A stretch of DNA of 64,000 nt from an uncultured Thiothrix sp. (GTDB lineage Bacteria > Pseudomonadota > Gammaproteobacteria > Thiotrichales > Thiotrichaceae), in the NCBI RefSeq assembly GCF_937873765.1, contig NZ_CALMZC010000023.1, positions 1-64,000 on the forward strand, written 5' to 3'. The notes under the pieces were generated by a model. It was not told the DNA's origin, did not search any database, and saw only the letters and a program-made list of their open reading frames with translations. The translations under genes and the position numbers were made by a program. Below, piece after piece: positions 9,001 to 63,139 of the stretch. Numbering within the stretch: position 1 is the stretch's first letter; each line of letters starts with the position of its first letter.

Positions 9001-12000
9001 CTTGTATTTACAAATGGAAATTTGATTGTGCGTGGCTGCGCACCCGCTGGATCAGTAGTTGAGTTATTTGAAGCGGATGTCAGCCAAGGTGGTACAGCAG
9101 CGGTGGGTGCGAATCGTTTTGGACACCTATTTGATTATGGTGAGGGGCAGAGTTACCTAGGCAGCTTTGTGGAGGGGACTGTTGTAGATGCGGATACAGG
9201 TAGTTGTGCAATACCTGCAGCAGATGGCAACAATAATACAGGGATGAAGGCTTTCCAATTCTCAATTCCAGTACCCGCTAGTGTGGTTAGTGGAGACTAT
9301 TTGACAGCAACAGCTACTTTGGCAGCAATGGGTACGTCAGAATTCAGCCCGACAGTGGCCGTGATTGATGGCCCGCCTCCTGTTGGCTCGGGTAGTTGTG
9401 CAGCAACCGGTGGCTCAGATATTTTATTCATTGTGGATAATTCGGGGTCGATTGTTGAGCCAGAATATGCTGATTTTGCCCAAACGATTCAAGCTGTGGG
9501 TAGTCAGGTATTGGTGAGCAATCCAAAGAATCGGATAGCAGTGGCTCATTTTGGGGGACCTTCTGACTCTTTAGTGAGTGGAGGACAATATGTGTATATC
9601 GAGCGTGATTTCTCAAGTACCGCTATGCTCGCACCAGTCAGACAGTTCGGTTGGGGGGGATCTTATAATCCAACTTGGACTGCAGATCACTTGGCGGGTG
9701 CTCTGCAACAAATGCGCTATGCCTTAGATGGGCAAGCCAGTACTACTTCGAGTTATATTCTTAGCCCACTTAAAGAAACGTCACGGAATACAGCTTCACC
9801 ATTGCAGATTGTGTTAATGACAGATGCAACGCGTTATTTAGATCTTGTTCCTAACGATATTTCTATGTTGATTGATCCACCCGGTTCAGGTGCAGAGCCT
9901 GATGATGGCTCGGCTTTCACTATATATAACCAAATGAAAGCCGAGGGGGTATTATTTTCAGTGGCTAGCTTTAATGCAGATCCATCGGATATTGCTGCAT
10001 CGGCTGCGATTGCGTCAGTGGGTGGCACTTATACTGGAGATATTGAAGCTAATGCACATGATCCACAAGGATCGCAAGTGACTCCACGTCGCTATGTCTC
10101 AGTGACAGCAGGGTTCCAGTTAACGACGACTCAGTTAGAGGAGTTGGTAGAAGGTACGGCTATTTGTGGTAGTTCTATCCAAGGCAGGGTATTTGAAGAT
10201 CCAAATTACGGCGGTGGAACAGGACGACCCTTTGGTACTCTTGGTACAGTCGGGATCACAGGGGCAAGCATTGAGGTCTATGATCAAGCCGGTAACTATG
10301 TAGCCAGTGTAGTGAGTACGACTGATGGCAAGTATAGCTTACCCAACCTGCCGGATGCTCCTTATTATGTGCGCGTAGTGGATGCAACGGTTAAGTCCAG
10401 CCGCCTAGGTTCTAATGGCTCTGAAATACCCGTGTTAACGTATCGGACAGATGGTTTAGTCGCGACAGCTAACCAGATTGGTGGCAATAAACCGATGTTA
10501 GCCGATGCAGGAGTGAATTTAGGTACAGCAACCTTAAATACTACGACCTTCCTGTTTAGTGGGGGTGGTTTGACTGGTAAGCCTGCACAATCAGTACAGC
10601 TAGTTAACCTGTCAGGTGGGGATTTGAAAGGAGTTGATTTTGGTTTCAACTTTAGTACCGTAGTCAACACTAATGACAGCGGACAAGGCTCATTACGGCA
10701 GTTCTTATTAAATAATAAACAGCTCGCTACCGATGGTTTGGCTCAAGTCTTACCGGCTTCTTTAGCGGCTGAATATCCAGCCGGTACTGAAACCAGTATC
10801 TTCATGATCCCAGCGACTCAGTTGACGGCAGGTCAAGCTATAATCACTTTAACCAGTGGTGCGCTAAGTTTAGAGCGTATGCATACGGCGATTGATGGAC
10901 GTACCCAAATCGCTAATATTGGGAGTGGCACGATTGTCTTAAACAACAGTATTAGTAATGGCTTGAACTTACTCGCCAGTGCAACCAGTTCAGCCGTGCG
11001 GGATATTACAGTTAGCCATGCTGCAGGGAGTGGAGTATTGCTGGATGATACTGATAATGCAGTGCTTGAGCGCGTTACTATTCTTAATAATAGCCAATAT
11101 GGTGTCAGTCTCACCAATGAAGCTCTCAATAACCGTATAGTAACTAATACGATTGCACATAATGCTTGGGCAGGCATCGCCCACATTGGGAGTGGTCTTG
11201 GTAATACTTATAGCCAAAATAGTATTCATGATAACGGTGGTTTAGGAATCGACCTAGGTGTGGACGGGGTGACTGCTAATGATGATCTAGATGTGGACAC
11301 AGGGTCGAATAAGCTCTTGAACTATCCAGTCGTAGAGGCAGGCTCATCGATCAGCTCAAATGGTACCAAAGTTGTTGCCTATGATTTTGATCTGGATGTA
11401 CCGACTAATACGCATGGTTACCGTCTAGAGTTTTTCCGCAATACTGCAGTGGATAGTTCAAGTCATGGGGAAGGTGAGATTTACCTAGGTTATGTCGATA
11501 TTAATCATGCAGGTGGTGGGCTACTGAACTTTAAAGGATCACTGAATGCCAACCAAACAGTACCTGCGAATGCAAATATTGCGGTGACTCTCACGGAGAA
11601 AACTAGCCCTACCAGTTTGGGGAGTACGTCTGAGTTTTCTGGAGTGAAGAACGGTTCAGTCTCTATTTGTACCGATTTAATTAATGGTACAGGCGCGGAT
11701 ATAACGGTGAATGAAAACGCACCAGTCATCACCTATCTTGAGTCAACGGATGACAATGGCAATCCGATTACCTATGTTATTAGTGGTGGTGCAGATAGTA
11801 ATCAATTTATTGTCCAAGGCCCTGAGCCAGGTGCAACACTAGATTGCCAACTTATTGTCTTCTATAAGCCTAATGTCATGGGTGCTCGCTCAAGTGCTCT
11901 GATCAAAGCTTTACCCTTGATAAAACCCGGCGATTACGAGGCTCCAACCGATAATGGTGGGGATAATACCTATAATCTAACGATTACTGCGACCGTTAAT

Positions 12001-13152
12001 GGGCAAGCTTATGAGCGTCCAGTTACTGTAGGGGTCAATGATATTAATGAAGCACCTGAAATTATCAATGAAACCCAAACTGAGTTTTTAGAGGGTAAGA
12101 CGGGCGTTGCGTTAGATCTTGAATCCTTCGATCCAGATGCAGGTGATGCAGAAGGAGCGGGTATTAGCTATGCACTTTCTGGCGGGGTCGATCGGGCGCG
12201 CTTTAAACTGAATCCTCAAACGGGTGAGCTGAGCTTTATAGCAACGCCCGACTTTGAGCAGCCTGTGGATGCGAGCAATGACAATATCTATGATATTGAT
12301 CTGCGTGTTATGGATGATCAGGGGCTGAGTAGCGTGAGTAGCTTAAAAATTGCCGTCACCGACGATAAACTCAATGATGGAGTTTATCTGCAAACTAAAG
12401 TCTTACTGCAAGGCCCTTATATTGCCTCCAGCGGCTTAATGCAGGATAGCTTAAGAACTACAGGTATATTGCCCATTAGCCAGCCGTATCAAGCAAGTCC
12501 CTTTAACTACTTGGGTACTGAGCAGTTGAATTTAGACTTAGCAACAGTGACTGGTAAAGAGGCCGTGGTAGATTGGGTATTGATTGAACTACGCGATGCC
12601 GCCAATCCAAAGACTATCGTCGCGAGTAAAGCAGCATTGGTACAACGAGATGGTGATGTGATTGACGCGCTCACTGGATCTGCGGTACTCAACTTCCCTG
12701 TAGCAACAGGCAGTTACTTAGTAAGTGTGCGCCATCGTAATCACTTGGGAGTTAGAACTGCGACTGCAGTATCCTTTGGGAGCCAATCAGTGATGATCGA
12801 CTTCAGCCAAACGGCTACCAAAGTTGCGGGTATACATGCACGTCTAGAAGCTACTAATTTAGCTTTACTCTGGGCGGGTGATGCCAATAACGACGAGCTC
12901 TTAATCGCTACGGGCATTGGCAGTGATGCGCGTGAAATTCTCAATGTGATACTCAAAACACCTAGCAATATTAATCTTAATAGTAGTTATCGCTTGTTGG
13001 GTTATTTGGATAGCGACCTAAATATGGATGGTGCCACTCTATTCATGGGGCCGAGCAATGATGCTAATGTATTGTTAGGAAACTTGTTTTTATTCCCAAG
13101 TAATACGGGTCATAACAGTAATTATATAGTGGTAGGTGGTTTAGCTAAATAA
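1..13152 (+). CDS. Giant multidomain surface protein (5' end outside window)
   Basis: The frame is open from base 1, so the ATG at 76 is internal and the protein begins upstream; 4,383 residues are visible. Domains in order by nucleotide: GEVED-like (about 199-714), jelly-roll-like (775-1480), three SdrD-B-like Ig repeats (1501-2535), a propeller-like region (2545-4010), SdrD-B 4, GEVED 2 (4576-5060), two tandem units of SdrD-B plus putative thioester domain (5083-7005), SdrD-B 7, a beta-helix opened by a GSLRQF motif (7500-8990), a von Willebrand A domain with the MIDAS motif DNSGS at 9436-9450, SdrD-B 8, a second beta-helix, a cadherin-like repeat (about 12050-12360) and a dockerin-like C-terminal module (12385-13149) shared with the gene at 14104. 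No membrane anchor or sortase motif is seen at the C-terminus. It is probably secreted and adhesive; ligand and export route cannot be read from the sequence. Confidence 0.9.
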   Translation, partial: TPPTTLAVKAAATNNYDANTLPKQLMVRVAWENVSSLQYTYYAGQFGGTDVDLQAFNTDGITPICETYDYGDAPASYGEVSHKILSSIYLGDNPPDAETASKYSFNARADNYDDGAPQQAASGVYIPLFPVLQLTDSSYSVNFKVTNLTGTAGKLHGWIDFDKSGTFEADEAAVVDVPSGASNATATLNWGSIPLDIQLGTVALRLRLSTDASVLVSTPTGSANDGEVEDYPIAIAMDIPPNSPSLAIVNGATPAACEVVVFQDNFNDLTPGLFWGLNRPGSQAVRDWDRSGGGNDTYAHITASSATDRSIYFGNGGVRQISPSIGTGFSFDANGKLLTVIDAIALRDDMDDIISPGTTVNEYGSKADWGPEPVKFSRSFSTIAGKTYRLYFKAKPEDPAGTYESGIMRLDMPGGSLHFKAPGSAEGVQSYAVEFTATSTSSVISFINYGHVENDNNKYCDPNSVFGNNVWCTVGGRTDGKVANELIIDDVVLTEAACATGSIKGRVYLDSNQDNNYDEGVENGLSAITVRLYDENGTTGDYSDDRLVNTKSTYVNGEYDFTEVNTSRSYRLEVDTTDSDLPAHTVIGTANPLTNRTVAANTLLDHQHFGFDLMMPSKILGTVYLDNNTNDSFNLGIDYGLGNITVSLHTMAGVLVASTQTAINGTYQFANLDHNLSYRITVDGTDADLPPGATLGTVNPIPNISVPQNSMVTKDVGFDQAANGITGKVFLDYNLNGQLDSQSAMINFANNMNIGLAFDKGIANAQIKAECVGAAGKLSFGPVTSDVNGQYYLATPGAVAGNYNCILQLTTIPSGYTVATQSGSGQQVLTQVVSPTAVNTYFALQQEMSYCQNNPDLAVNRFAYGQQTANAPFAGNNDVANIFAFPYNSGTAGVPNTLPLGYNHPLETDTAFKDLALANQVGSVFGLGWHPSSHSLFASAYMKAWTGFGSGGTGGIYRVDLSNPSSPVSSLYANLNQIFPATPPTVGSDPYLTGIFSSTNPGYVQIADGSSAPDGSYVASGNATRDNQNGQIAAAVGKTAFGDLDVSADGKSLFVVNMANNKLYILPVRSAPLTAADAGLISSYSIPFAANCRVNGTKRAFGLGEYEEGLYVATECGAEYGLPWEVSEHSVFRFDLQSKTFSTTPSLVYASSSEDSYGISFSLITDLVFDPAGQMILTFRNNLSSSTDTTADDGKGSAYSVIRRACIQDKAAYRWEKENNASCGGVTTPGKDAGYGTGPGSGTFFYQEYPADNGPALRSASYGGAAQIPGFMEMAYTVSEPFEFYSVGVSWVDTGLGNPATAGQRNRAYSFYKGTGAFDYPDNRPVNGKNAAIGDLEVLCDTPSLEIGNRVWQDSDSDGVQDAGELPVAGVKVELFANGANLASATPLATTVTDANGYYVFSSDMRGYPATGNNAPNDTTGANGGFNAADIQGGRASTTSHKYGLLSLTPNTQYQVVIRNVGGASKQASLGSMTLSTVAQGTDPELDSDAGAVGNHAVANVSMLGYGNHYHAVDFGFKVGAILTDYGDAPASYGTPSHTIVSGIRLGATAPDGETAAQPSIGANLDDTTGTDDEDGITLPALTQGQTTTITTTVVGAGGYLQGWIDWNGDGDFADSGEQVATNIQDNLVGDTNNVLGTIAFSVAVPANAVTTPTYARFRWSTTISLDAITAAVNGEVEDYALTITNPSGQSSLSGKVWFDSNNDGIQNDGTTAYIGGAKVELYNPATSTIVTTTTTDANGNYQFSSAAGFLPSTTYQLRIRRLDTQKPFSEWSLTTANLGGDDNLDSDAILNGNYWIISFTSPNSGNSATGYGFGFVTNSAQGCIDVGSTGIANDTLSNGHAHAYDFVFAGKQVTGFCAEPSEPSPQLNDSYQVYSSDRLGFSTAQKSKLRRLYSAIQDPDVLFSIARVSPPGGSQAFNQQMLLDHVMSYMSWYYLHYNENMTTIISTFFESNGDYTAEQLTLIRDLLPLIADRVAGTNGQVQYPEQNMFWLWNMTTTTRQDIIIPSSYAAEASCAANTNLSGKVWFDSNNDGIQNDGVGAGVEGAKLELFNPATNTIVATTTTTATGTYAFDTTSGLMPNISYQVRMLKPDNDFPLSDWGLTAKNMGGDPNQDSDAVVNGSYWQINLVSPNSGQTLGGYDIGLVNTIPQGCLDNGATGVAYVAPSPFYAYNFLFNGKQVSGYCLEVADFSPQANDSFQVNPIDRRGLSAIQRSQLARLYSALHDPDIVFPIISVSNPNTMQDNLDALLKYMTWYYSDYNENITSVNNNITDNNSLTVAQKDLYKILAVKIINRVAGSNGETQYPEQKLYWLWNLTTTARQDIVVPARYIIGGVCTANYVISGKVFEDVNYGGGAGRNASVTGTAGISGTQVELYNSTGNFVSNTTTAANGAYSFSAVPAGNYFVRVVNASVNSSRSGSNGSELGVQTFRTNGTVAITNEVGGRKPDATDAEAHDGTATLNTTTFVFSGGALNGKQAQSVTPVTVAGALSGVDFGFNFDTVVNTNDSGQGSLRQFILNANLLGGEASLAQVGLAAGKERSIFMLPLTDPRYINSDGVANNGDEFWRIPLLNGLPETTGAETVLDASTQAGSQCNPVVGRRLVVELDGSNVSNLTGTAITLAGPYNGVRGFAIGSNSGNQFTFGIYLRKRTVFESQTPAHDSVIACNNIGATPSGQAYPVRFYTDAVGIFADNVTVGGSDPADRNIIGSADDDGVESEGNATIIRNNYIGLAADGVSKLPLNDHVVALWPPGSNMTVIDNKLAVTRFGIFSQSSGTTVRNNTIGLTANGQNVVAGGEYLLQFQAGNALAENNLFASGGAGGQPAVILMDGSTFQNNTIGFNSAGISVAGSGSAHVGISLRNAAGTANTPIVINNNTIGNAGSAGIGFNSDVDVPVSITRNRIGVAPNGITPASNAWSGIAVNNNASSPVTIGGANLGNIIANNMKAAIAHTGTGIVTVNQNSIYNNTGLGIDLSDDAVTTNDAGDVDVGPNGKLNFPLLQQLVFTNGNLIVRGCAPAGSVVELFEADVSQGGTAAVGANRFGHLFDYGEGQSYLGSFVEGTVVDADTGSCAIPAADGNNNTGMKAFQFSIPVPASVVSGDYLTATATLAAMGTSEFSPTVAVIDGPPPVGSGSCAATGGSDILFIVDNSGSIVEPEYADFAQTIQAVGSQVLVSNPKNRIAVAHFGGPSDSLVSGGQYVYIERDFSSTAMLAPVRQFGWGGSYNPTWTADHLAGALQQMRYALDGQASTTSSYILSPLKETSRNTASPLQIVLMTDATRYLDLVPNDISMLIDPPGSGAEPDDGSAFTIYNQMKAEGVLFSVASFNADPSDIAASAAIASVGGTYTGDIEANAHDPQGSQVTPRRYVSVTAGFQLTTTQLEELVEGTAICGSSIQGRVFEDPNYGGGTGRPFGTLGTVGITGASIEVYDQAGNYVASVVSTTDGKYSLPNLPDAPYYVRVVDATVKSSRLGSNGSEIPVLTYRTDGLVATANQIGGNKPMLADAGVNLGTATLNTTTFLFSGGGLTGKPAQSVQLVNLSGGDLKGVDFGFNFSTVVNTNDSGQGSLRQFLLNNKQLATDGLAQVLPASLAAEYPAGTETSIFMIPATQLTAGQAIITLTSGALSLERMHTAIDGRTQIANIGSGTIVLNNSISNGLNLLASATSSAVRDITVSHAAGSGVLLDDTDNAVLERVTILNNSQYGVSLTNEALNNRIVTNTIAHNAWAGIAHIGSGLGNTYSQNSIHDNGGLGIDLGVDGVTANDDLDVDTGSNKLLNYPVVEAGSSISSNGTKVVAYDFDLDVPTNTHGYRLEFFRNTAVDSSSHGEGEIYLGYVDINHAGGGLLNFKGSLNANQTVPANANIAVTLTEKTSPTSLGSTSEFSGVKNGSVSICTDLINGTGADITVNENAPVITYLESTDDNGNPITYVISGGADSNQFIVQGPEPGATLDCQLIVFYKPNVMGARSSALIKALPLIKPGDYEAPTDNGGDNTYNLTITATVNGQAYERPVTVGVNDINEAPEIINETQTEFLEGKTGVALDLESFDPDAGDAEGAGISYALSGGVDRARFKLNPQTGELSFIATPDFEQPVDASNDNIYDIDLRVMDDQGLSSVSSLKIAVTDDKLNDGVYLQTKVLLQGPYIASSGLMQDSLRTTGILPISQPYQASPFNYLGTEQLNLDLATVTGKEAVVDWVLIELRDAANPKTIVASKAALVQRDGDVIDALTGSAVLNFPVATGSYLVSVRHRNHLGVRTATAVSFGSQSVMIDFSQTATKVAGIHARLEATNLALLWAGDANNDELLIATGIGSDAREILNVILKTPSNINLNSSYRLLGYLDSDLNMDGATLFMGPSNDANVLLGNLFLFPSNTGHNSNYIVVGGLAK
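5083..7005 (+). repeat. Tandem SdrD-B plus thioester-like protein module (2 copies)
   Basis: Two consecutive units of about 320 residues (5083-6040 and 6055-7005) align throughout. Each begins with an SdrD-B motif (GKVWFDSNNDGIQNDG), then has a Cys-containing motif (GFCAE with Cys codon 5572-5574; GYCLE with Cys codon 6550-6552), and about 125 residues later a Gln in YPEQNMFWLWN or YPEQKLYWLWN (codons 5959-5961 and 6919-6921). DNA identity is visible but interrupted at many third positions, so the duplication is not recent. Confidence 0.75.
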
Positions 13153-53697: not shown

Positions 53698-54201
53698 TTA
53701 TGGGTTAACAATAGAGTGTAACATCTGGCCAGTATACAAGTAGCAACCAATCGTGTAGGTTTTAGTTGCGTCAACTGGAAAGTCAGTAGCACCTGATGGT
53801 GTGATTTCTGCTGCTGTTGGACCTGCGCTCGAGCCAGCTTTCCATGCTACTTTTCTATTAGCAGTACCAGTAGAAGTCAATGACTGTGCAGCAACATAGC
53901 AATTATAAATATCTTTAACAGCATCCACAGGGATGTCTAAATTGAAAGTAGTCTTTAAGTTATGGCCTACACCACCACCTACACCTTCACCTGGGCAATG
54001 AACCCAAGCACTTGTTACGCTTTTCAGTGTACTCCAATCCGGTGTAAAACTAGTATCTTGTGAAGGATAGTAAGCCTTACAAGCGGTTCCTGCAGTAACA
54101 GTCTTTGTAGTAGTATCATATGCCATAGCACCACTGCTCGCTAATAAAGAACCACCCATCAGAACAGCAGCTGTTAGAGCTGTTAAATTTAATTTTTTCA
54201 T
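53698..54201 (-). CDS. Secreted four-cysteine protein A, copy 1
   Basis: A 167-residue protein. The ATG at 54201 has GGAGA about 9 bases upstream and starts a Sec signal peptide (ALTAAVLMGGSLLASSGAMA). The mature protein has four Cys (GTACKAYYP, WVHCPG, IYNCYVA, TIGCYLY), probably two disulfides, and alternates short beta-type segments. It is a paralog of protein B at 55629, with the same Cys spacing and the shared words ACKAYYP, FNLDIP and GCYLYT. No known function. It ends in NP-stop directly at the left edge of the duplicated block. Confidence 0.85.
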   Translation of the reverse strand: MKKLNLTALTAAVLMGGSLLASSGAMAYDTTTKTVTAGTACKAYYPSQDTSFTPDWSTLKSVTSAWVHCPGEGVGGGVGHNLKTTFNLDIPVDAVKDIYNCYVAAQSLTSTGTANRKVAWKAGSSAGPTAAEITPSGATDFPVDATKTYTIGCYLYTGQMLHSIVNP

Positions 54202-54320
54202 TTCAGAATATCTCCAAAAACATCTCAAATCAGTGACACCCCCAGAAACTAGAGACGTCGTTCCTAACCCAAACGAAGGCTACACTACTTAAAACCAATA
54301 GTCTAGCTTCGTCTGACTAT

Positions 54321-54350
54321 ACTATAAAGTAAACTAACATGTTGTGTTAA
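54321..54350 (-). promoter_or_regulatory. Promoter of secreted protein A, copy 1
   Basis: On the minus strand TTAACA (54345-54350), an 18-base spacer and TATAGT (54321-54326) match the sigma70 consensus at 5 of 6 positions each. They lie about 120 bases before the start at 54201 in a 311-bp gap without any other gene. Confidence 0.55.
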
Positions 54351-54512
54351 CTATTTACGTAACGATAGTCTACAGCGTACTAAACTGTTGTAGCATTACC
54401 ACAGTGGGCAGTTTAATACAAAACTTAAGCGACCTACAACTGTCTATTGAGTTTTGAACAAAAAATTTTATTTAGTTTTATAAATCAGTGAAAGTACTTA
54501 CAAAATTAGCGT

Positions 54513-55553
54513 TTAAGCTAAAAAAGCGAGCTTTGACCAAAACCGGCGCACCAGTGTGAAAACAGAGGTTCTAAGAGGTGGCCAAATGAGGGTTTTGCGT
54601 CTGGCCAGAAAGCGTCTTTGCGTATAGAGCCTTAAAATCTGCCAACGTCCGGTGAGTATTGCTTTTGTGAAATAAAGCCCGTCAATCCAAACAATATTCT
54701 CAAGAATTTGATGTTGCTGATCAGCGATGGAATCCAAGGCAAAATACCGTTTGACTAAACCATTGCCGCTTGCCAGAAAAATCGCATGTTGCATCCAAAA
54801 GCGTGGATTCAACTCAAGTATGACGACCTCTCCCTTTGCAACCATAAACTCCAGCTCATAAGGCCCCACAAATGCTAGAGCGTCTAGAACTTGTGTAGTT
54901 TTGGTAAGCAAGTCCCATTGATCAGGAATCGTTTCTACCATAGCCGCACAACTGAGCCCTTGATGATGGGATAACAAGCGTTTGACGATAGCGGTAGTGT
55001 TGCGGGAATGATTTTGACTATCATGGAAACCACAGACCGATATATTCTGATGATCTTGGTCTCCCAACCATTCTTGGAAAAAAAAAGCTTGGTAGGATAA
55101 GCCCATTTTAGTAACTTGTTGCAAGTGTTGCTGAACATCGTGCTCCGAACGGCAAATCCAGCCTCTAGGCAGTTTAATGCTTCCTTGCCAAGAATGTTTA
55201 GCTTTTAGCAAGCAGGGAAAAGCGGGGGGGGGCTTATCATCAATCGCCCATTGTCGTAAGCCTGCAGGTAAGTCTTTGTTAGAGGCTAGCCAAGCAGCGA
55301 AAGCCCATTTGTCATCCAATAAAGAAGGTGGAAATTGTGGCGGCAAGAAACGCCCTATCAATTGCCCCTGTAAAGCCTGACCTAAGGTATGCTCTTCTGT
55401 AAATAATAACCATGCCTGCTCATTATCAGGAGTTTGGTAGGGAATCGGATAACTTGGATTTTCCTCAGTGGTAAACACCTCAATATTCAGAGCTTTAGCT
55501 GCCTTGTAGAGAGTATAAGCATTGATGGAGGCGGTAAACGTATAAGCTTTCAT
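54513..55553 (-). CDS. ATP-grasp ligase, copy 1
   Basis: A 346-residue protein without a signal peptide. The second half shows the ATP-grasp metal/ATP motif VVILELNPRFWMQHAIFLAS, with an upstream lysine/Glu region (LKAKHSWQGSIKLP; FQEWLGDQDHQN) and YELEFMVAKGE, as in carbamoyl-phosphate synthetase-like ligases that form amide or peptide bonds via an acyl phosphate. The substrate is unknown; an amino-acid amide on a sugar or on another molecule is possible. The gene contains a C9 run (plus-strand G at 55224-55232) and a T9 run (plus-strand A at 55078-55086). Upstream of its ATG lies a fragment of the PLP gene end. Confidence 0.85.
   Translation of the reverse strand: MKAYTFTASINAYTLYKAAKALNIEVFTTEENPSYPIPYQTPDNEQAWLLFTEEHTLGQALQGQLIGRFLPPQFPPSLLDDKWAFAAWLASNKDLPAGLRQWAIDDKPPPAFPCLLKAKHSWQGSIKLPRGWICRSEHDVQQHLQQVTKMGLSYQAFFFQEWLGDQDHQNISVCGFHDSQNHSRNTTAIVKRLLSHHQGLSCAAMVETIPDQWDLLTKTTQVLDALAFVGPYELEFMVAKGEVVILELNPRFWMQHAIFLASGNGLVKRYFALDSIADQQHQILENIVWIDGLYFTKAILTGRWQILRLYTQRRFLARRKTLIWPPLRTSVFTLVRRFWSKLAFLA
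55224..55232. repeat. Homopolymer G9 (coding-strand C9) in the ATP-grasp gene
   Basis: Nine G on the + strand encode three Pro codons near residue 110. The second copy has the same length at 58938-58946. A slip of one base would truncate the enzyme. Confidence 0.9.
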
Positions 55554-55558
55554 TACTA

Positions 55559-55584
55559 ATCATCAAAGCCTTTAAAGTGATAGC
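55559..55584. repeat. 26-bp direct repeat, left copy (block copy 1)
   Basis: Identical to 56355-56380. On the minus strand it reads YHFKGFDD, the last residues of the PLP protein, here stranded just before the ATP-grasp ATG. The repeats bracket the secreted protein B gene with a spacing of 796 bp. Confidence 0.92.
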
Positions 55585-55628
55585 AGCTCAGCGCACTAGC
55601 GAGGTAATAAAACCTTTCTTCATTTAGG

Positions 55629-56120
55629 TCATTGTCTACCAATAGAGTATAAGCTATGAGCTGTGTACAAGTAGCAACCGGTGGTAAGCGTTTTATTCTC
55701 ATCAACTAGAATAGAACCATTAGGCCCCCCCCCATCCGTATCACCAATTTCAACCACAACAGGCCCCACGCCTGAACCTATTATCCAGATTACTTCTTTA
55801 GTAGAGCTGTCAGCAGTTGCATTCTGTGTAGCAATATAGCAATTAAAGATATGTTTTTCCGCACTAATGGGTATGTCTAGATTGAAAATAACCACGTTGC
55901 CAGCAGCTACACTGCCACCTATATCTGGACAATGAAACCAAGTATTAGCCGTGCTTTTAACACTATTCCAGTCAGGCTGTAGGTTAAGCTTTTGATTAGG
56001 ATAATAAGCTTTACAAGCTGCTCCCGCAGCTATCCTGTCGAGCGATGCCATCCCGCTTCCAATAAACGTCAAGGGACTAATCATCAAAACAGCAATTATT
56101 AGGTTTTTTAAATTTTTCAC
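55629..56120 (-). CDS. Secreted four-cysteine protein B, copy 1
   Basis: A 163-residue protein starting at GTG with a strong AGGAAGGA 7 bases upstream. The Sec signal peptide is NLIIAVLMISPLTFIGSGMA. The four Cys align with those of protein A (ACKAYYP, WFHCPD, IFNCYIA, TTGCYLY). It has an insertion containing a G8 coding run (DGGGPNGS) at plus-strand positions 55726-55733. The function is unknown. The gene is bracketed by 26-bp direct repeats, suggesting it was inserted between the PLP and ATP-grasp genes. Confidence 0.83.
   Translation of the reverse strand: MKNLKNLIIAVLMISPLTFIGSGMASLDRIAAGAACKAYYPNQKLNLQPDWNSVKSTANTWFHCPDIGGSVAAGNVVIFNLDIPISAEKHIFNCYIATQNATADSSTKEVIWIIGSGVGPVVVEIGDTDGGGPNGSILVDENKTLTTGCYLYTAHSLYSIGRQ
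55726..55733. repeat. Homopolymer C8 (coding-strand G8) in secreted protein B
   Basis: Eight C on the + strand encode Gly-Gly-Gly and the start of Pro in the protein B loop. The same length is present in copy 2 (59440-59447). Slippage would alter the C-terminal third. Confidence 0.85.
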
Positions 56121-56277
56121 TTTAGATTCCTTCCTAAAAGCATTATTAAATTAATCCTGAATTAGCTTTCTAGGAATGCTATTTATAAAAAAAACTATTA
56201 ATTAAATTTAATATTTAAATCCATGATTGCATTAGCATAAAAACCAGACAAGTATCTCAAGCATTAACACACAAATG

Positions 56278-56286
56278 ATTATAGCA
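56278..56286 (-). promoter_or_regulatory. Extended -10 promoter of secreted protein B, copy 1
   Basis: On the minus strand TGC is followed directly by a perfect TATAAT (56278-56283), an extended -10 element about 160 bases before the GTG start. No good -35 is at the proper distance (a TTGACG is too far upstream). The rest of the 228-bp gap is AT-rich. Confidence 0.55.
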
Positions 56287-56348
56287 TATTAAATCACTGT
56301 GCTCACCGTCAAATATTGTTTGAGCAAAGTCTGTAGTTTACGGTTTCA

Positions 56349-57365
56349 CTATTGATCATCAAAGCCTTTAAAGTGATAGCTCGGCGTGTTGGGGCGCTCA
56401 CTGTAGTTTGGGCGGTCATGGCTAGCATAAGGTGCCTTTTTTTTGAGCTGCGCGGTAGCAGATTTAGCCAAAATATAAGGAGCTGACAGATAGAAGGGAG
56501 TTGGTTGGGGAGTAATCAAGCCTTTCTGCAAATAACGTTGTTTGCACCACTGATAGTATTTGCTAAACCACAGACCTGCAGTAGCGACGGCAATCTGTAG
56601 TTTGGTAGCACCACTGTGTGCAAAGGTATAGGGAAACTGTTGACAATAGGAATACTCAAAAGTGCTAGGGTAGTCTTGTTCAACCAAGTAAGAATCGGCC
56701 GGTTTGTTACCTATGCTGAAAATTGGCTTGATGATTCGTTTAACAAGCTGCTTAACTATACCTAACTGCTCAAAATCTGTTGCAGCACTCAATAAGGGGT
56801 CGTCGAGATTACTAATGACTACAGCGCCCATTACACTAGGAAATGCCTTGTTGTTGAAGCTAGCCATAAGGACAATTTGCTGGTCTAGATCAGCATGACT
56901 TAACTGTTTCAGGCGGGAAATACCCTGAGATAGGTCTATGAATAAGGTAACATTATTTTGAGTACGCCAGTTTTTACCTTCAGGAGAAAAAGCCCAAGAT
57001 AGACCTCCTTCAGCACCCATAATTGGGGCTAAGCAAAGTATTAGGGAGACTTGGTCTTTTGCGTGTTGCTGAATAGCTTGAATGGAAGGCTCAAAATATT
57101 TATCAGTCGGGTAACTGCATATATGAACGCCTGCTTCTTGGAAAGCTTTGTGTACAACATTGCAAATATAATCGGGTAGAAGGGCGATAGTATTTTCTTT
57201 TTTACATGCTAAGGCCATGCGGTATAAAGCAACACGTCCTGAGAAGTAGAACCGAGTGGGCAGTAAAAAATTATGGATATTTAATGCTTTCTGAAAAAGC
57301 AATACTATTACCTTGTAGGGAAGCAAAGCCAATAAACTACCTAACACATATTGGCAGATGGGCAT
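56349..57365 (-). CDS. Divergent DegT-fold PLP-dependent protein, copy 1
   Basis: A 338-residue protein that aligns by pattern with DegT/EryC1-type aminotransferases: an N-terminal substrate-side GRVALYRMALA, LLPDYICNVVHKAF in place of the usual PGYTF region, FIDLSQGIS where the family has the PLP-contacting Asp, and SFNNKAFPSVMGAVVIS with a Lys at the Schiff-base position. Overall similarity is low, so it may have a changed reaction. The hydrophobic N-terminus (LGSLLALLPYKVIVLLFQ) may associate with the membrane. The start follows a methyltransferase remnant, as its full-length counterpart follows the intact methyltransferase. Confidence 0.7.
   Translation of the reverse strand: MPICQYVLGSLLALLPYKVIVLLFQKALNIHNFLLPTRFYFSGRVALYRMALACKKENTIALLPDYICNVVHKAFQEAGVHICSYPTDKYFEPSIQAIQQHAKDQVSLILCLAPIMGAEGGLSWAFSPEGKNWRTQNNVTLFIDLSQGISRLKQLSHADLDQQIVLMASFNNKAFPSVMGAVVISNLDDPLLSAATDFEQLGIVKQLVKRIIKPIFSIGNKPADSYLVEQDYPSTFEYSYCQQFPYTFAHSGATKLQIAVATAGLWFSKYYQWCKQRYLQKGLITPQPTPFYLSAPYILAKSATAQLKKKAPYASHDRPNYSERPNTPSYHFKGFDDQ
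56355..56380. repeat. 26-bp direct repeat, right copy (block copy 1)
   Basis: The 3' end of the PLP gene itself (YHFKGFDDQ-stop on the minus strand); identical to 55559-55584. Confidence 0.92.
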
Positions 57366-57414
57366 TTAAATTTTCCTAAAAACCAATACTTTCTCGCGGA
57401 ATAGTCAGCCCAGA
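57366..57414 (-). pseudogene. Methyltransferase 3'-end remnant at the duplication junction
   Basis: Matches the last codons of the methyltransferase gene (61080-61120) except for 8 extra bases, CTCGCGGA at 57393-57400. In the intact gene these bases are absent and the frame reads WADYKVLVFRKI-stop. The fragment supplies the altered C-terminus of secreted protein A copy 2. Confidence 0.9.
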
Positions 57415-57915
57415 TGGGTTAACAATAGAGTGTAACATCTGGCCAGTATACAAGTAGCAACCAATCGTGTAGGTTTTAGTTGCGTCAACTGGAAAGTCAG
57501 TAGCACCTGATGGTGTGATTTCTGCTGCTGTTGGACCTGCGCTCGAGCCAGCTTTCCATGCTACTTTTCTATTAGCAGTACCAGTAGAAGTCAATGACTG
57601 TGCAGCAACATAGCAATTATAAATATCTTTAACAGCATCCACAGGGATGTCTAAATTGAAAGTAGTCTTTAAGTTATGGCCTACACCACCACCTACACCT
57701 TCACCTGGGCAATGAACCCAAGCACTTGTTACGCTTTTCAGTGTACTCCAATCCGGTGTAAAACTAGTATCTTGTGAAGGATAGTAAGCCTTACAAGCGG
57801 TTCCTGCAGTAACAGTCTTTGTAGTAGTATCATATGCCATAGCACCACTGCTCGCTAATAAAGAACCACCCATCAGAACAGCAGCTGTTAGAGCTGTTAA
57901 ATTTAATTTTTTCAT
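57376..57915 (-). CDS. Secreted four-cysteine protein A, copy 2 (altered C-terminus)
   Basis: Identical to copy 1 up to SIVNP, then continues for 12 residues (SGLTIPRESIGF) read from the methyltransferase remnant, giving 179 residues. All four Cys and the signal peptide are retained, so it is probably still functional. It lacks the terminator that follows copy 1, so its transcript should run into the next PLP gene 10 bp downstream. Confidence 0.83.
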   Translation of the reverse strand: MKKLNLTALTAAVLMGGSLLASSGAMAYDTTTKTVTAGTACKAYYPSQDTSFTPDWSTLKSVTSAWVHCPGEGVGGGVGHNLKTTFNLDIPVDAVKDIYNCYVAAQSLTSTGTANRKVAWKAGSSAGPTAAEITPSGATDFPVDATKTYTIGCYLYTGQMLHSIVNPSGLTIPRESIGF

Positions 57916-58034
57916 TTCAGAATATCTCCAAAAACATCTCAAATCAGTGACACCCCCAGAAACTAGAGACGTCGTTCCTAACCCAAACGAAGGCTACACT
58001 ACTTAAAACCAATAGTCTAGCTTCGTCTGACTAT

Positions 58035-58064
58035 ACTATAAAGTAAACTAACATGTTGTGTTAA
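58035..58064 (-). promoter_or_regulatory. Promoter of secreted protein A, copy 2
   Basis: Same TTAACA, 18-base spacer and TATAGT arrangement as in copy 1, 3,714 bp away. Confidence 0.55.
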
Positions 58065-58226
58065 CTATTTACGTAACGATAGTCTACAGCGTACTAAACT
58101 GTTGTAGCATTACCACAGTGGGCAGTTTAATACAAAACTTAAGCGACCTACAACTGTCTATTGAGTTTTGAACAAAAAATTTTATTTAGTTTTATAAATC
58201 AGTGAAAGTACTTACAAAATTAGCGT

Positions 58227-59267
58227 TTAAGCTAAAAAAGCGAGCTTTGACCAAAACCGGCGCACCAGTGTGAAAACAGAGGTTCTAAGAGGTGGCCAAA
58301 TGAGGGTTTTGCGTCTGGCCAGAAAGCGTCTTTGCGTATAGAGCCTTAAAATCTGCCAACGTCCGGTGAGTATTGCTTTTGTGAAATAAAGCCCGTCAAT
58401 CCAAACAATATTCTCAAGAATTTGATGTTGCTGATCAGCGATGGAATCCAAGGCAAAATACCGTTTGACTAAACCATTGCCGCTTGCCAGAAAAATCGCA
58501 TGTTGCATCCAAAAGCGTGGATTCAACTCAAGTATGACGACCTCTCCCTTTGCAACCATAAACTCCAGCTCATAAGGCCCCACAAATGCTAGAGCGTCTA
58601 GAACTTGTGTAGTTTTGGTAAGCAAGTCCCATTGATCAGGAATCGTTTCTACCATAGCCGCACAACTGAGCCCTTGATGATGGGATAACAAGCGTTTGAC
58701 GATAGCGGTAGTGTTGCGGGAATGATTTTGACTATCATGGAAACCACAGACCGATATATTCTGATGATCTTGGTCTCCCAACCATTCTTGGAAAAAAAAA
58801 GCTTGGTAGGATAAGCCCATTTTAGTAACTTGTTGCAAGTGTTGCTGAACATCGTGCTCCGAACGGCAAATCCAGCCTCTAGGCAGTTTAATGCTTCCTT
58901 GCCAAGAATGTTTAGCTTTTAGCAAGCAGGGAAAAGCGGGGGGGGGCTTATCATCAATCGCCCATTGTCGTAAGCCTGCAGGTAAGTCTTTGTTAGAGGC
59001 TAGCCAAGCAGCGAAAGCCCATTTGTCATCCAATAAAGAAGGTGGAAATTGTGGCGGCAAGAAACGCCCTATCAATTGCCCCTGTAAAGCCTGACCTAAG
59101 GTATGCTCTTCTGTAAATAATAACCATGCCTGCTCATTATCAGGAGTTTGGTAGGGAATCGGATAACTTGGATTTTCCTCAGTGGTAAACACCTCAATAT
59201 TCAGAGCTTTAGCTGCCTTGTAGAGAGTATAAGCATTGATGGAGGCGGTAAACGTATAAGCTTTCAT
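58227..59267 (-). CDS. ATP-grasp ligase, copy 2
   Basis: Protein identical to the copy at 54513, including the ELNPRFW motif and both homopolymer tracts (G9 at 58938-58946 and A9 at 58792-58800). Because no base differs, the two copies must be functionally equivalent, or one arises from an assembly error. It is preceded by protein B copy 2 and followed by protein A copy 2. Confidence 0.85.
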   Translation of the reverse strand: MKAYTFTASINAYTLYKAAKALNIEVFTTEENPSYPIPYQTPDNEQAWLLFTEEHTLGQALQGQLIGRFLPPQFPPSLLDDKWAFAAWLASNKDLPAGLRQWAIDDKPPPAFPCLLKAKHSWQGSIKLPRGWICRSEHDVQQHLQQVTKMGLSYQAFFFQEWLGDQDHQNISVCGFHDSQNHSRNTTAIVKRLLSHHQGLSCAAMVETIPDQWDLLTKTTQVLDALAFVGPYELEFMVAKGEVVILELNPRFWMQHAIFLASGNGLVKRYFALDSIADQQHQILENIVWIDGLYFTKAILTGRWQILRLYTQRRFLARRKTLIWPPLRTSVFTLVRRFWSKLAFLA

Positions 59268-59272
59268 TACTA

Positions 59273-59298
59273 ATCATCAAAGCCTTTAAAGTGATAGC
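59273..59298. repeat. 26-bp direct repeat, left copy (block copy 2)
   Basis: Same PLP-gene-end fragment as at 55559, located just before the ATP-grasp ATG of copy 2. Confidence 0.92.
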
Positions 59299-59342
59299 AG
59301 CTCAGCGCACTAGCGAGGTAATAAAACCTTTCTTCATTTAGG

Positions 59343-59834
59343 TCATTGTCTACCAATAGAGTATAAGCTATGAGCTGTGTACAAGTAGCAACCGGTGGTA
59401 AGCGTTTTATTCTCATCAACTAGAATAGAACCATTAGGCCCCCCCCCATCCGTATCACCAATTTCAACCACAACAGGCCCCACGCCTGAACCTATTATCC
59501 AGATTACTTCTTTAGTAGAGCTGTCAGCAGTTGCATTCTGTGTAGCAATATAGCAATTAAAGATATGTTTTTCCGCACTAATGGGTATGTCTAGATTGAA
59601 AATAACCACGTTGCCAGCAGCTACACTGCCACCTATATCTGGACAATGAAACCAAGTATTAGCCGTGCTTTTAACACTATTCCAGTCAGGCTGTAGGTTA
59701 AGCTTTTGATTAGGATAATAAGCTTTACAAGCTGCTCCCGCAGCTATCCTGTCGAGCGATGCCATCCCGCTTCCAATAAACGTCAAGGGACTAATCATCA
59801 AAACAGCAATTATTAGGTTTTTTAAATTTTTCAC
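59343..59834 (-). CDS. Secreted four-cysteine protein B, copy 2
   Basis: Identical to the protein at 55629, with the same GTG start, ribosome-binding site, signal peptide and G8 coding run. It is bracketed by its own pair of 26-bp repeats (59273 and 60069), so the insertion of protein B predates the 3.7-kb duplication. Confidence 0.83.
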   Translation of the reverse strand: MKNLKNLIIAVLMISPLTFIGSGMASLDRIAAGAACKAYYPNQKLNLQPDWNSVKSTANTWFHCPDIGGSVAAGNVVIFNLDIPISAEKHIFNCYIATQNATADSSTKEVIWIIGSGVGPVVVEIGDTDGGGPNGSILVDENKTLTTGCYLYTAHSLYSIGRQ

Positions 59835-59991
59835 TTTAGATTCCTTCCTAAAAGCATTATTAAATTAATCCTGAATTAGCTTTCTAGGAATGCTATTTAT
59901 AAAAAAAACTATTAATTAAATTTAATATTTAAATCCATGATTGCATTAGCATAAAAACCAGACAAGTATCTCAAGCATTAACACACAAATG

Positions 59992-60000
59992 ATTATAGCA
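59992..60000 (-). promoter_or_regulatory. Extended -10 promoter of secreted protein B, copy 2
   Basis: TGC plus TATAAT on the minus strand, identical to the element at 56278. Confidence 0.55.
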
Positions 60001-60062
60001 TATTAAATCACTGTGCTCACCGTCAAATATTGTTTGAGCAAAGTCTGTAGTTTACGGTTTCA

Positions 60063-61079
60063 CTATTGATCATCAAAGCCTTTAAAGTGATAGCTCGGCG
60101 TGTTGGGGCGCTCACTGTAGTTTGGGCGGTCATGGCTAGCATAAGGTGCCTTTTTTTTGAGCTGCGCGGTAGCAGATTTAGCCAAAATATAAGGAGCTGA
60201 CAGATAGAAGGGAGTTGGTTGGGGAGTAATCAAGCCTTTCTGCAAATAACGTTGTTTGCACCACTGATAGTATTTGCTAAACCACAGACCTGCAGTAGCG
60301 ACGGCAATCTGTAGTTTGGTAGCACCACTGTGTGCAAAGGTATAGGGAAACTGTTGACAATAGGAATACTCAAAAGTGCTAGGGTAGTCTTGTTCAACCA
60401 AGTAAGAATCGGCCGGTTTGTTACCTATGCTGAAAATTGGCTTGATGATTCGTTTAACAAGCTGCTTAACTATACCTAACTGCTCAAAATCTGTTGCAGC
60501 ACTCAATAAGGGGTCGTCGAGATTACTAATGACTACAGCGCCCATTACACTAGGAAATGCCTTGTTGTTGAAGCTAGCCATAAGGACAATTTGCTGGTCT
60601 AGATCAGCATGACTTAACTGTTTCAGGCGGGAAATACCCTGAGATAGGTCTATGAATAAGGTAACATTATTTTGAGTACGCCAGTTTTTACCTTCAGGAG
60701 AAAAAGCCCAAGATAGACCTCCTTCAGCACCCATAATTGGGGCTAAGCAAAGTATTAGGGAGACTTGGTCTTTTGCGTGTTGCTGAATAGCTTGAATGGA
60801 AGGCTCAAAATATTTATCAGTCGGGTAACTGCATATATGAACGCCTGCTTCTTGGAAAGCTTTGTGTACAACATTGCAAATATAATCGGGTAGAAGGGCG
60901 ATAGTATTTTCTTTTTTACATGCTAAGGCCATGCGGTATAAAGCAACACGTCCTGAGAAGTAGAACCGAGTGGGCAGTAAAAAATTATGGATATTTAATG
61001 CTTTCTGAAAAAGCAATACTATTACCTTGTAGGGAAGCAAAGCCAATAAACTACCTAACACATATTGGCAGATGGGCAT
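60063..61079 (-). CDS. Divergent DegT-fold PLP-dependent protein, copy 2
   Basis: Identical to the protein at 56349. Here the native context is visible: its ATG directly follows the stop of the intact methyltransferase (TAAATG), so the methyltransferase and PLP protein are translationally coupled and probably act on the same substrate. This is probably the original location of the gene. Confidence 0.72.
   Translation of the reverse strand: MPICQYVLGSLLALLPYKVIVLLFQKALNIHNFLLPTRFYFSGRVALYRMALACKKENTIALLPDYICNVVHKAFQEAGVHICSYPTDKYFEPSIQAIQQHAKDQVSLILCLAPIMGAEGGLSWAFSPEGKNWRTQNNVTLFIDLSQGISRLKQLSHADLDQQIVLMASFNNKAFPSVMGAVVISNLDDPLLSAATDFEQLGIVKQLVKRIIKPIFSIGNKPADSYLVEQDYPSTFEYSYCQQFPYTFAHSGATKLQIAVATAGLWFSKYYQWCKQRYLQKGLITPQPTPFYLSAPYILAKSATAQLKKKAPYASHDRPNYSERPNTPSYHFKGFDDQ
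60069..60094. repeat. 26-bp direct repeat, right copy (block copy 2)
   Basis: End of the PLP gene of copy 2; identical to 59273-59298. Confidence 0.92.
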
Positions 61080-61874
61080 TTAAATTTTCCTAAAAACCAA
61101 TACTTTATAGTCAGCCCAGAAATGCTTCCCCAAGAGGGCAAGTAATTTTTCACCTAATAAGTAGCGCTTCTTAAGATGTTCTCCTGTGTAATCTGAATTA
61201 GCGAGCCACTCTCTAAAAGGCCAGAACAGTATGCCTGATTTTTTTTCTAAGACTAAGCCTTTGCCAGAAAAATAGTTTATCACATCCTGGCTACCATACT
61301 TTGCTCTAGCTAAGTAATTCCAGCGGTGAAATGGATCGATCATAATAAGTAACCCATTTGTAGCTAGCATTTCTGATGCGTAGTGGAGTGATTGCTCAAG
61401 CTTACTGATATCACGAATGGCTGAGTAACACCCTGATGACAAGATAAGAGAATAGGGTTGCTCACTATAATAATTCTCTGCTTCGCAAGCGATATAATTA
61501 ATTTGGACGCCCGCGTTTTTAGTTGTTGCCACAGCGATCATTTCTGGAAAATCAACCGCATCAACTTTAAGAGTTGGGTTCATGCGGGTGATCATGCTGG
61601 CAACAACCCCTATTCCACAGCCAATGTCTAACACACTAGCTTGGGGTACAAGCTGCTTAAAATATGGCTCTAGAATTGTTTGTTGATCTTGGCGATAAAG
61701 GCTGTTGTATTCCTGATTAGTCCATAGTACTGCAGCCTGATCAGGATCAGCTGCACGCTTCTTCCAATATTGTGATGAATCATAATTATGATAGATAAAT
61801 AACTTACGAAAACGAGCTACAAGTCGTTTTACAGATTCTGGTGTGTATTTTTTAGCGACTGTAACATAAGACAT
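61080..61874 (-). CDS. SAM-dependent methyltransferase
   Basis: A 264-residue class I methyltransferase. The start at MSYVTVAKK overlaps the flippase stop (TAATG). The SAM motif is VLDIGCGIGVVASMI, followed by the acidic VDAVDFPEMI and LILSSGCYSAIRDIS. The N-terminus contains YWKKRAADPD. No membrane segment. The next gene is the PLP protein with zero spacing. The substrate is unknown; a sugar or the product of the ATP-grasp/PLP pair is plausible. Confidence 0.87.
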   Translation of the reverse strand: MSYVTVAKKYTPESVKRLVARFRKLFIYHNYDSSQYWKKRAADPDQAAVLWTNQEYNSLYRQDQQTILEPYFKQLVPQASVLDIGCGIGVVASMITRMNPTLKVDAVDFPEMIAVATTKNAGVQINYIACEAENYYSEQPYSLILSSGCYSAIRDISKLEQSLHYASEMLATNGLLIMIDPFHRWNYLARAKYGSQDVINYFSGKGLVLEKKSGILFWPFREWLANSDYTGEHLKKRYLLGEKLLALLGKHFWADYKVLVFRKI

Positions 61875-63139
61875 TAATAGTGTTTTCCTGATAACCAATA
61901 TTCTACAATTCCATCGACCAAATAAAGTGTGATATTAATTAACGCAAATAGATATAAAATAAGCTCGATGGATGGTTTTTGATAGAAAGCGTAAAAAAAT
62001 AAGATAGTTAAAGCAACAAGTCGGACACAATGCCAGATAAAAATATATCTGTTAGCTCCAACGACTAAAGCACCCTTATCAATAGGTGTGAAGATAAACT
62101 GAACATAGGCCGAAATAATCAAAATCTGAGCATACTCTCCAGCAATACGCCAAGACTCTCCGAATAGTAAAGCAAATAAAGTAGGCGCAGACGCATACAA
62201 TATTAATGATGGTAACAATGCCAAGCTGGACGTAGCAATGAGGGTTTTAAGAAAGATAGTACGGAATTCACCTTTTTGGTTATATTCTTCGGCGATTTTC
62301 TGACGATAGACATCACCGATGGCACTTGCAACTAGAGTAGTTGGTAGGCTGACTAATCGAAAAGCTAGAGAAAAAAAACCAGTTGCTGCTAGCGAGTAGA
62401 CACTGCTGATTATCAAGAGCGGTATTTGCTGTGCAGTTACCCCAATCAGTTGTGAGGGAGCAATGTATTTAGGATGAGATGAATAACGCCGTGCTAGCTG
62501 CAGTTGTGCTTGAAAGTCGGTTTGTTTGAAAAGCGTTTTATTATGTTCCCATAGTTTTCGACCTATCCAACTGGTAAAGATCAAATTGGAAAAAACGCTG
62601 CCTATTAATAACCCGCCGCTTACCTTACTTAAACCAAAACCTATCTGTGTGCTAGCAGTCAGTAGTGATTGTTGCACCCGGTTAATGGCTATTATTTTGT
62701 ACTTACTAAGCCGATTATACCAAAACTGGAGGGTGCTGAAGACACCGCTGGCTAACACCGATAGTGGCAGTAGATATAGCCAAAGCGCTAACTGCTCATG
62801 ACCAAGCGCTACTGTTATATCACGACCAAACAAAGTGATAGGAATAAACAACAGAGCACTGATGAGTGTACATACCTTTAAGGTTAGTATGACGAGGTTA
62901 GCAGCATCAAGATGGTTATCAGGTAAAGTAATGGCCAATTCAAAACGCATAGTGGCGATTACAGAGAGTACTGTGACACAAGCTACATAAATAGCTAATA
63001 AACCAAACTCATCAGGTCTATAAATCCGGGTTAAGACAGGGCTAACCGCAATTGGGATTGCTTGTGCTATCACTGTACCAGAAAATAGAATAGCTACACT
63101 CTTGGCAAAGTGGCTAGACTTTATTCGCTTAATGAGCAT
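61874..63139 (-). CDS. wzx: Wzx-type lipid-linked oligosaccharide flippase
   Basis: A 421-residue integral membrane protein with about 12 hydrophobic helices from end to end. The N-terminal motif SHFAKSVAILFSGTVIAQAIPIAVSPVLTRIYRPDEFG is split here by function: the first helix and the Pro-containing VSPVLTRIY..DEFG are typical of Wzx/RfbX proteins. It moves undecaprenyl-linked repeat units across the inner membrane before Wzy polymerisation. It overlaps the methyltransferase start by 1 base. Confidence 0.9.
   Translation of the reverse strand: MLIKRIKSSHFAKSVAILFSGTVIAQAIPIAVSPVLTRIYRPDEFGLLAIYVACVTVLSVIATMRFELAITLPDNHLDAANLVILTLKVCTLISALLFIPITLFGRDITVALGHEQLALWLYLLPLSVLASGVFSTLQFWYNRLSKYKIIAINRVQQSLLTASTQIGFGLSKVSGGLLIGSVFSNLIFTSWIGRKLWEHNKTLFKQTDFQAQLQLARRYSSHPKYIAPSQLIGVTAQQIPLLIISSVYSLAATGFFSLAFRLVSLPTTLVASAIGDVYRQKIAEEYNQKGEFRTIFLKTLIATSSLALLPSLILYASAPTLFALLFGESWRIAGEYAQILIISAYVQFIFTPIDKGALVVGANRYIFIWHCVRLVALTILFFYAFYQKPSIELILYLFALINITLYLVDGIVEYWLSGKHY

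Follow-up and report, generated by a model that had tools for sequence, protein, structure and literature searches.

The window analysed here comprises 64,000 bp (bases 1-64000 of an 88,493-bp contig) from a draft genome of 4.01 Mb in 69 contigs. The repeat described below lies in a surface-polysaccharide locus, in which some genes were named by eye from the sequence. Its neighbours encode a Wzx-like flippase, a Wzy-like oligosaccharide repeat unit polymerase, a VimE-like deacetylase, glycosyltransferases and sugar-nucleotide enzymes; the first three fit the description of the block as an envelope module in an earlier note made from the letters of this stretch. Elsewhere in the window, an ORF of 4,358 residues (76-13152) extends from near the contig start and appears, by eye, to encode a surface protein with SdrD-repeat, VWA and cadherin-like features. 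Every gene of the repeat region is on the minus strand, and the order in gene direction is methyltransferase, PLP-like, B, ATP-grasp-like, A, scar, PLP-like, B, ATP-grasp-like, A, hairpin:

61080-61898, minus strand: methyltransferase gene, intact; the right breakpoint is 40 bp before the gene end
60063-61079, minus strand: PLP-like protein, copy 2, 338 aa; labelled by eye only, without a family match
59343-59834, minus strand: secreted protein B, copy 2, 163 aa; an orphan, paralogue of A
58227-59267, minus strand: ATP-grasp-like protein, copy 2, 346 aa
57376-57942, minus strand: secreted protein A, copy 2; natural stop lost, 12 extra residues from the scar
56349-57365, minus strand: PLP-like protein, copy 1
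55629-56120, minus strand: secreted protein B, copy 1
54513-55553, minus strand: ATP-grasp-like protein, copy 1
53698-54228, minus strand: secreted protein A, copy 1; natural end, the left breakpoint is within the stop codon
53627-53650, minus strand: terminator-like hairpin, 3' of secreted A and outside the unit

At an offset of 3,714 we identified a single run of 3,693 identical bases (53700-57392 vs. 57414-61106), and a repeat search gave an equal spacing, so that the near-perfect head-to-tail duplication claimed earlier at this offset holds for the assembled text. Comparison of 53700-57413 to 57414-61119 by blastn shows 99.785% identity over 3,714 columns, the sole difference being an 8-bp insertion. 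Similarity resumes for 13 bp past the insertion, which places the exact right end of the repeat at 61119; of the block bounds proposed before, 53700-61120, the left one stands and the right one is refined accordingly.

53700-57413: repeat unit, copy 1, 3,714 bp, including the 8-bp insertion near its right end
57414-61119: repeat unit, copy 2, 3,706 bp
57393-57400: 8-bp insertion CTCGCGGA, the one point at which the copies differ, with a single occurrence in the window
57366-57413, minus strand: junction scar, consisting of the copied last 40 bp of the methyltransferase gene and the 8-bp insertion

The sequence to the right of copy 2 reads CAATACTTT-ATAGTCAGCCCAG-AAATGC, and that at the junction reads CAATACTTT-CTCGCGGA-ATAGTCAGCCCAG-ATGGGTTAAC, where the 8-bp difference had also been noticed before. 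No further exact repeats of at least 40 bp were found in the 64-kb window, and none of at least 60 bp in the contig together with ~330 kb of other contigs sampled. As assembled, the locus thus contains two direct, adjacent and highly similar copies, the arrangement that defines a tandem duplication. The identity seen here describes the sequence as assembled, and “100% identical” is an upper bound. Graph assemblers may merge isolated differences between repeat copies. Taking the assembled string at face value, 0 substitutions in 3,706 compared bases correspond to a divergence below ~8 × 10−4 per site (rule of three, 95%). The duplication is likely to be recent, with the proviso that slight differences between the copies may have been collapsed by graph assembly at K = 55.

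In gene direction, the unit starts with the last 40 bp of the methyltransferase gene and finishes in the stop codon of A. On the right outer flank, the methyltransferase ends naturally (WADYKVLVFRKI-stop), and on the left outer flank A ends with VNP-stop, followed by the terminator-like hairpin. At the junction, the two unit ends are fused with at most 1 bp of shared sequence, and the 8-bp insertion lies 13 bp from the join. Here, the second copy of A is without its own stop, gains 12 residues and reaches a stop 10 bp short of where the next PLP-like gene starts; the altered end of this copy, pointed out in the earlier note, is therefore borne out, and the left copy keeps the natural end. The locus accordingly has one novel junction between outer ends that look ancestral, as in a tandem duplication, and with natural ends outside and fused ends inside, the ancestral single-copy order is legible. 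Within 57376-57400, the 8-bp insertion sets the frame in which the second copy of A stops; without the insertion, this copy would run into the PLP-like gene.

The IS or long repeats that amplification mediated by IS or transposons would be expected to show were not found at the unit ends, and the ends of the common IS of this genome are absent from the 64-kb window. Together with the homology of at most 1 bp, these observations point to an illegitimate rather than a homologous event. The unit ends (53700-53718 and 61101-61119) form an imperfect inverted match (13/19, P ~1 × 10−3 allowing shifts, noticed post hoc). The unit-end motif was not found in pairs elsewhere, and no recombinase was seen in the unit among its ORFs and family matches. 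A transposon with terminal inverted repeats was rejected because the end match is weak and non-recurring and no recombinase was seen in the unit. A candidate hairpin at the junction scored no better than shuffles.

Of the 137 contig termini of the draft genome, 114 have sequence in common with some other terminus, and the overlap stops exactly at base 55 for 92 of them, which indicates a short-read de Bruijn assembly with K = 55; three of the other termini belong to masked contigs. The assembler was presumably SPAdes. A single type of IS (CAACTC(C/T)TCTGGTGCATGACC) accounts for about 60 of the contig termini, which lie in its two ends, so that roughly 30 copies of this IS break the assembly. 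The ends of another contig (3,185 bp) overlap by exactly 55 bp, which makes it a 3,130-bp circle; its genes encode a 359-aa replication-initiator-like protein and a RelB/YafQ-like toxin-antitoxin pair (names by eye). An rRNA copy test of the assembly returned no match, and the small contigs read N.

A K = 55 short-read assembly cannot span a 3.7-kb exact repeat. Five models of the locus were each converted into a K = 55 graph, namely, one, two, three and six copies, and one copy with a 3,714-bp circle. The sets of 56-mers were exactly identical for 2, 3 and 6 copies and for one copy with the circle; 76 of these 56-mers, which are specific to the junction, are missing from the single-copy model. 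Because the graphs are identical for two or more copies or a circle, the assembly shows the junction and not the copy number. The same assembly breaks at IS ends but runs through the repeat block, as expected where the repeat forms a plain loop that has a single entry and a single exit, the one type of long repeat that SPAdes does print (PMC6052550). According to that study, SPAdes rebuilds loops exceeding the insert size, and its scaffolds print two copies when the simulated array has anything from two to five (units of 100-500 bp; PMC6052550, Table 5). An assembler would be expected to retain such a loop only given read support, and the junction is probably real. The earlier note had taken the 8-bp difference as an argument for a real event: it does make a plain overlap error hard to invoke, but it is silent on copy number.

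We further compared the proteins of the block to known families. The ATP-grasp-like protein (54513-55553) matched NCBIfam NF009402 with E = 5 × 10−5 and 22 bits vs. a cut-off of 218, and Pfam CPSase_L_D2 with 0.037, which lends the label given to it earlier weak support. The PLP label did not stand in the same way: for the protein at 56349-57365, no aminotransferase model of the PLP-dependent fold type I was matched in Pfam, NCBIfam or PDB. AlphaFold single-sequence models of both proteins were unusable (pLDDT ~36), and Rfam yielded no match. The gene setting suggests that the block may have an accessory role in the polysaccharide locus, in modification and secretion.

Each genome, plasmid or viral collection was searched with one query among the ATP-grasp-like protein, the PLP-like protein and A/B. 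Neither the ATP-grasp-like nor the PLP-like protein had a credible relative in 38 relatives or 368 other genomes of the class, where the searches yielded two marginal partial matches (4 × 10−4 and 1 × 10−3). Secreted A had no relatives in the genomes searched; an A/B profile gave weak matches within the family, and those that were checked had aligned to the signal-peptide region in longer proteins that are unrelated. Nothing was retrieved from the plasmid collection with the ATP-grasp-like query or from viral contigs with the A query. A single-copy parent of the block was not found, no genome searched containing a relative with the block, and since the block proteins are without credible relatives, no outside copy shows the single-copy state. 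The methyltransferase has distant relatives only, and two neighbouring genes have no relatives in the genus, so no empty site can be read.

Each unit also contains an older duplication scar that is absent from the earlier note:

55540-55584, minus strand: older scar, relic of the PLP-like 3' end before the ATP-grasp-like gene; partner at 56336-56380
59254-59298: older scar in the other unit copy; partner at 60050-60094

The scar joins two stretches, the PLP-like 3' end and the ATP-grasp-like 5' start, both of which are present twice per unit, on either side of secreted B. The alignment of the two occurrences (65 columns) scored 68 vs. a maximum of 34 in 200 shuffles, and the repeat covers 45 bp at 87%. 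The layout is like that of the new junction, where a scar from the 3' end of an upstream gene likewise comes after a secreted gene, and A and B are paralogues (46% protein identity). These observations suggest that the older scar is a trace of an earlier event in the same operon. In such an earlier round, the segment reaching from the PLP 3' end through A may have been copied in an ancestral PLP-ATP-grasp-A arrangement, after which one ATP-grasp copy would have been lost and B left. However, the leaders of A and B showed no alignment above shuffles, which weakens this simple account, and the relic retains 26 bp of exact identity despite the 46% protein identity of A and B, which also counts against an older duplication. 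It is just as possible that B was inserted and its target duplicated. That the operon is generally prone to duplication, each round copying from the 3' end of the upstream gene through the end of the secreted gene and so generating lineage-specific secreted proteins, is a doubtful extension of these findings.

We consider the probable explanation of the locus to be that a 3.7-kb segment of the operon was recently duplicated in tandem by an illegitimate, homology-independent event. Under this scenario, a right breakpoint 40 bp before the methyltransferase end and a left one in the stop codon of A would have been joined with at most 1 bp shared. Both flanking genes are intact, which implies a small cost of the duplication. 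The copies are in the same operon direction, and no terminator was seen between them, so a higher dose of the block is expected. Across 3.7 kb of identity, RecA could expand or collapse the array, and the event would be present in the sequenced cells at two or more copies. Bacterial duplications without end homology are well described (PMC11111574, PMC7661048). The suggestion of a very recent amplification thus survives insofar as a recent tandem duplication is the best reading, but two copies are not fixed, given that the K = 55 graph is the same for more copies or a circle.

The most plausible variant, itself a case of tandem duplication although a rather unlikely one, is a true amplification to three or more chromosomal copies that was printed as two. 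The identity of the K = 55 graphs for 2, 3 and 6 copies agrees with it, as do the benchmark scaffolds of SPAdes, in which simulated arrays with three to five copies came out as two (PMC6052550, Table 5); two copies, however, need fewer events, and there is no positive sign of more. We regard as improbable a single chromosomal copy with the junction confined to a subpopulation or to a 3.7-kb circle. Although one copy with a 3,714-bp circle yields the same graph and the unit ends are weakly inverted-repeat-like (13/19, P ~1 × 10−3 allowing shifts), no gene for replication or for a recombinase is among the unit ORFs, the end motif was not found as a pair elsewhere, and the inverted match was noticed after the fact. 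Least probable of all, and very unlikely, is a pure artefact of assembly or library, that is, a chimeric join without a counterpart in the cells. The assembly is indeed a short-read draft in which all the information resides in the 76 junction 56-mers, but a random chimera would be rare among reads and normally removed, and this join carries an 8-bp insertion and sits at gene ends, with both outer flanks continuing naturally.

A recent tandem duplication of this kind belongs to a known class of events, gene duplication-amplification, of which it is an unusually fresh case. In Haemophilus influenzae type b, the capsule locus duplication consists of long repeats bounded by IS1016. The locus described here resembles it in the tandem copies of part of a surface-polysaccharide locus and a possible dosage effect, and differs in the illegitimate junction and in having no IS. 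Closer in mechanism are the duplications in Acinetobacter, attributed to short-homology-independent illegitimate recombination (Reams and Neidle 2004, as cited in PMC11111574), and in Pseudomonas fluorescens (PMC7661048). Shared features are copies in direct, head-to-tail orientation, a single novel junction, ends with little or no homology and intact flanks, whereas the 8-bp insertion near the join and the lack of a known selection set the present case apart, as does its unit of 3.7 kb vs. 45-290 kb in P. fluorescens. As in the copy-number variation of cagA in Helicobacter pylori (PMC5358911), the gene copies may be able to expand and contract; in contrast to cagA, the present case is known from one assembly, and copy-number variation was not observed.

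These findings carry a warning, namely, that in a K = 55 short-read assembly two perfect copies can stand for a tandem array of any size as well as for a single copy accompanied by a circle. If real, the locus would represent a natural duplication caught before divergence, with an illegitimate junction that can be read to the base, inside a polysaccharide locus.
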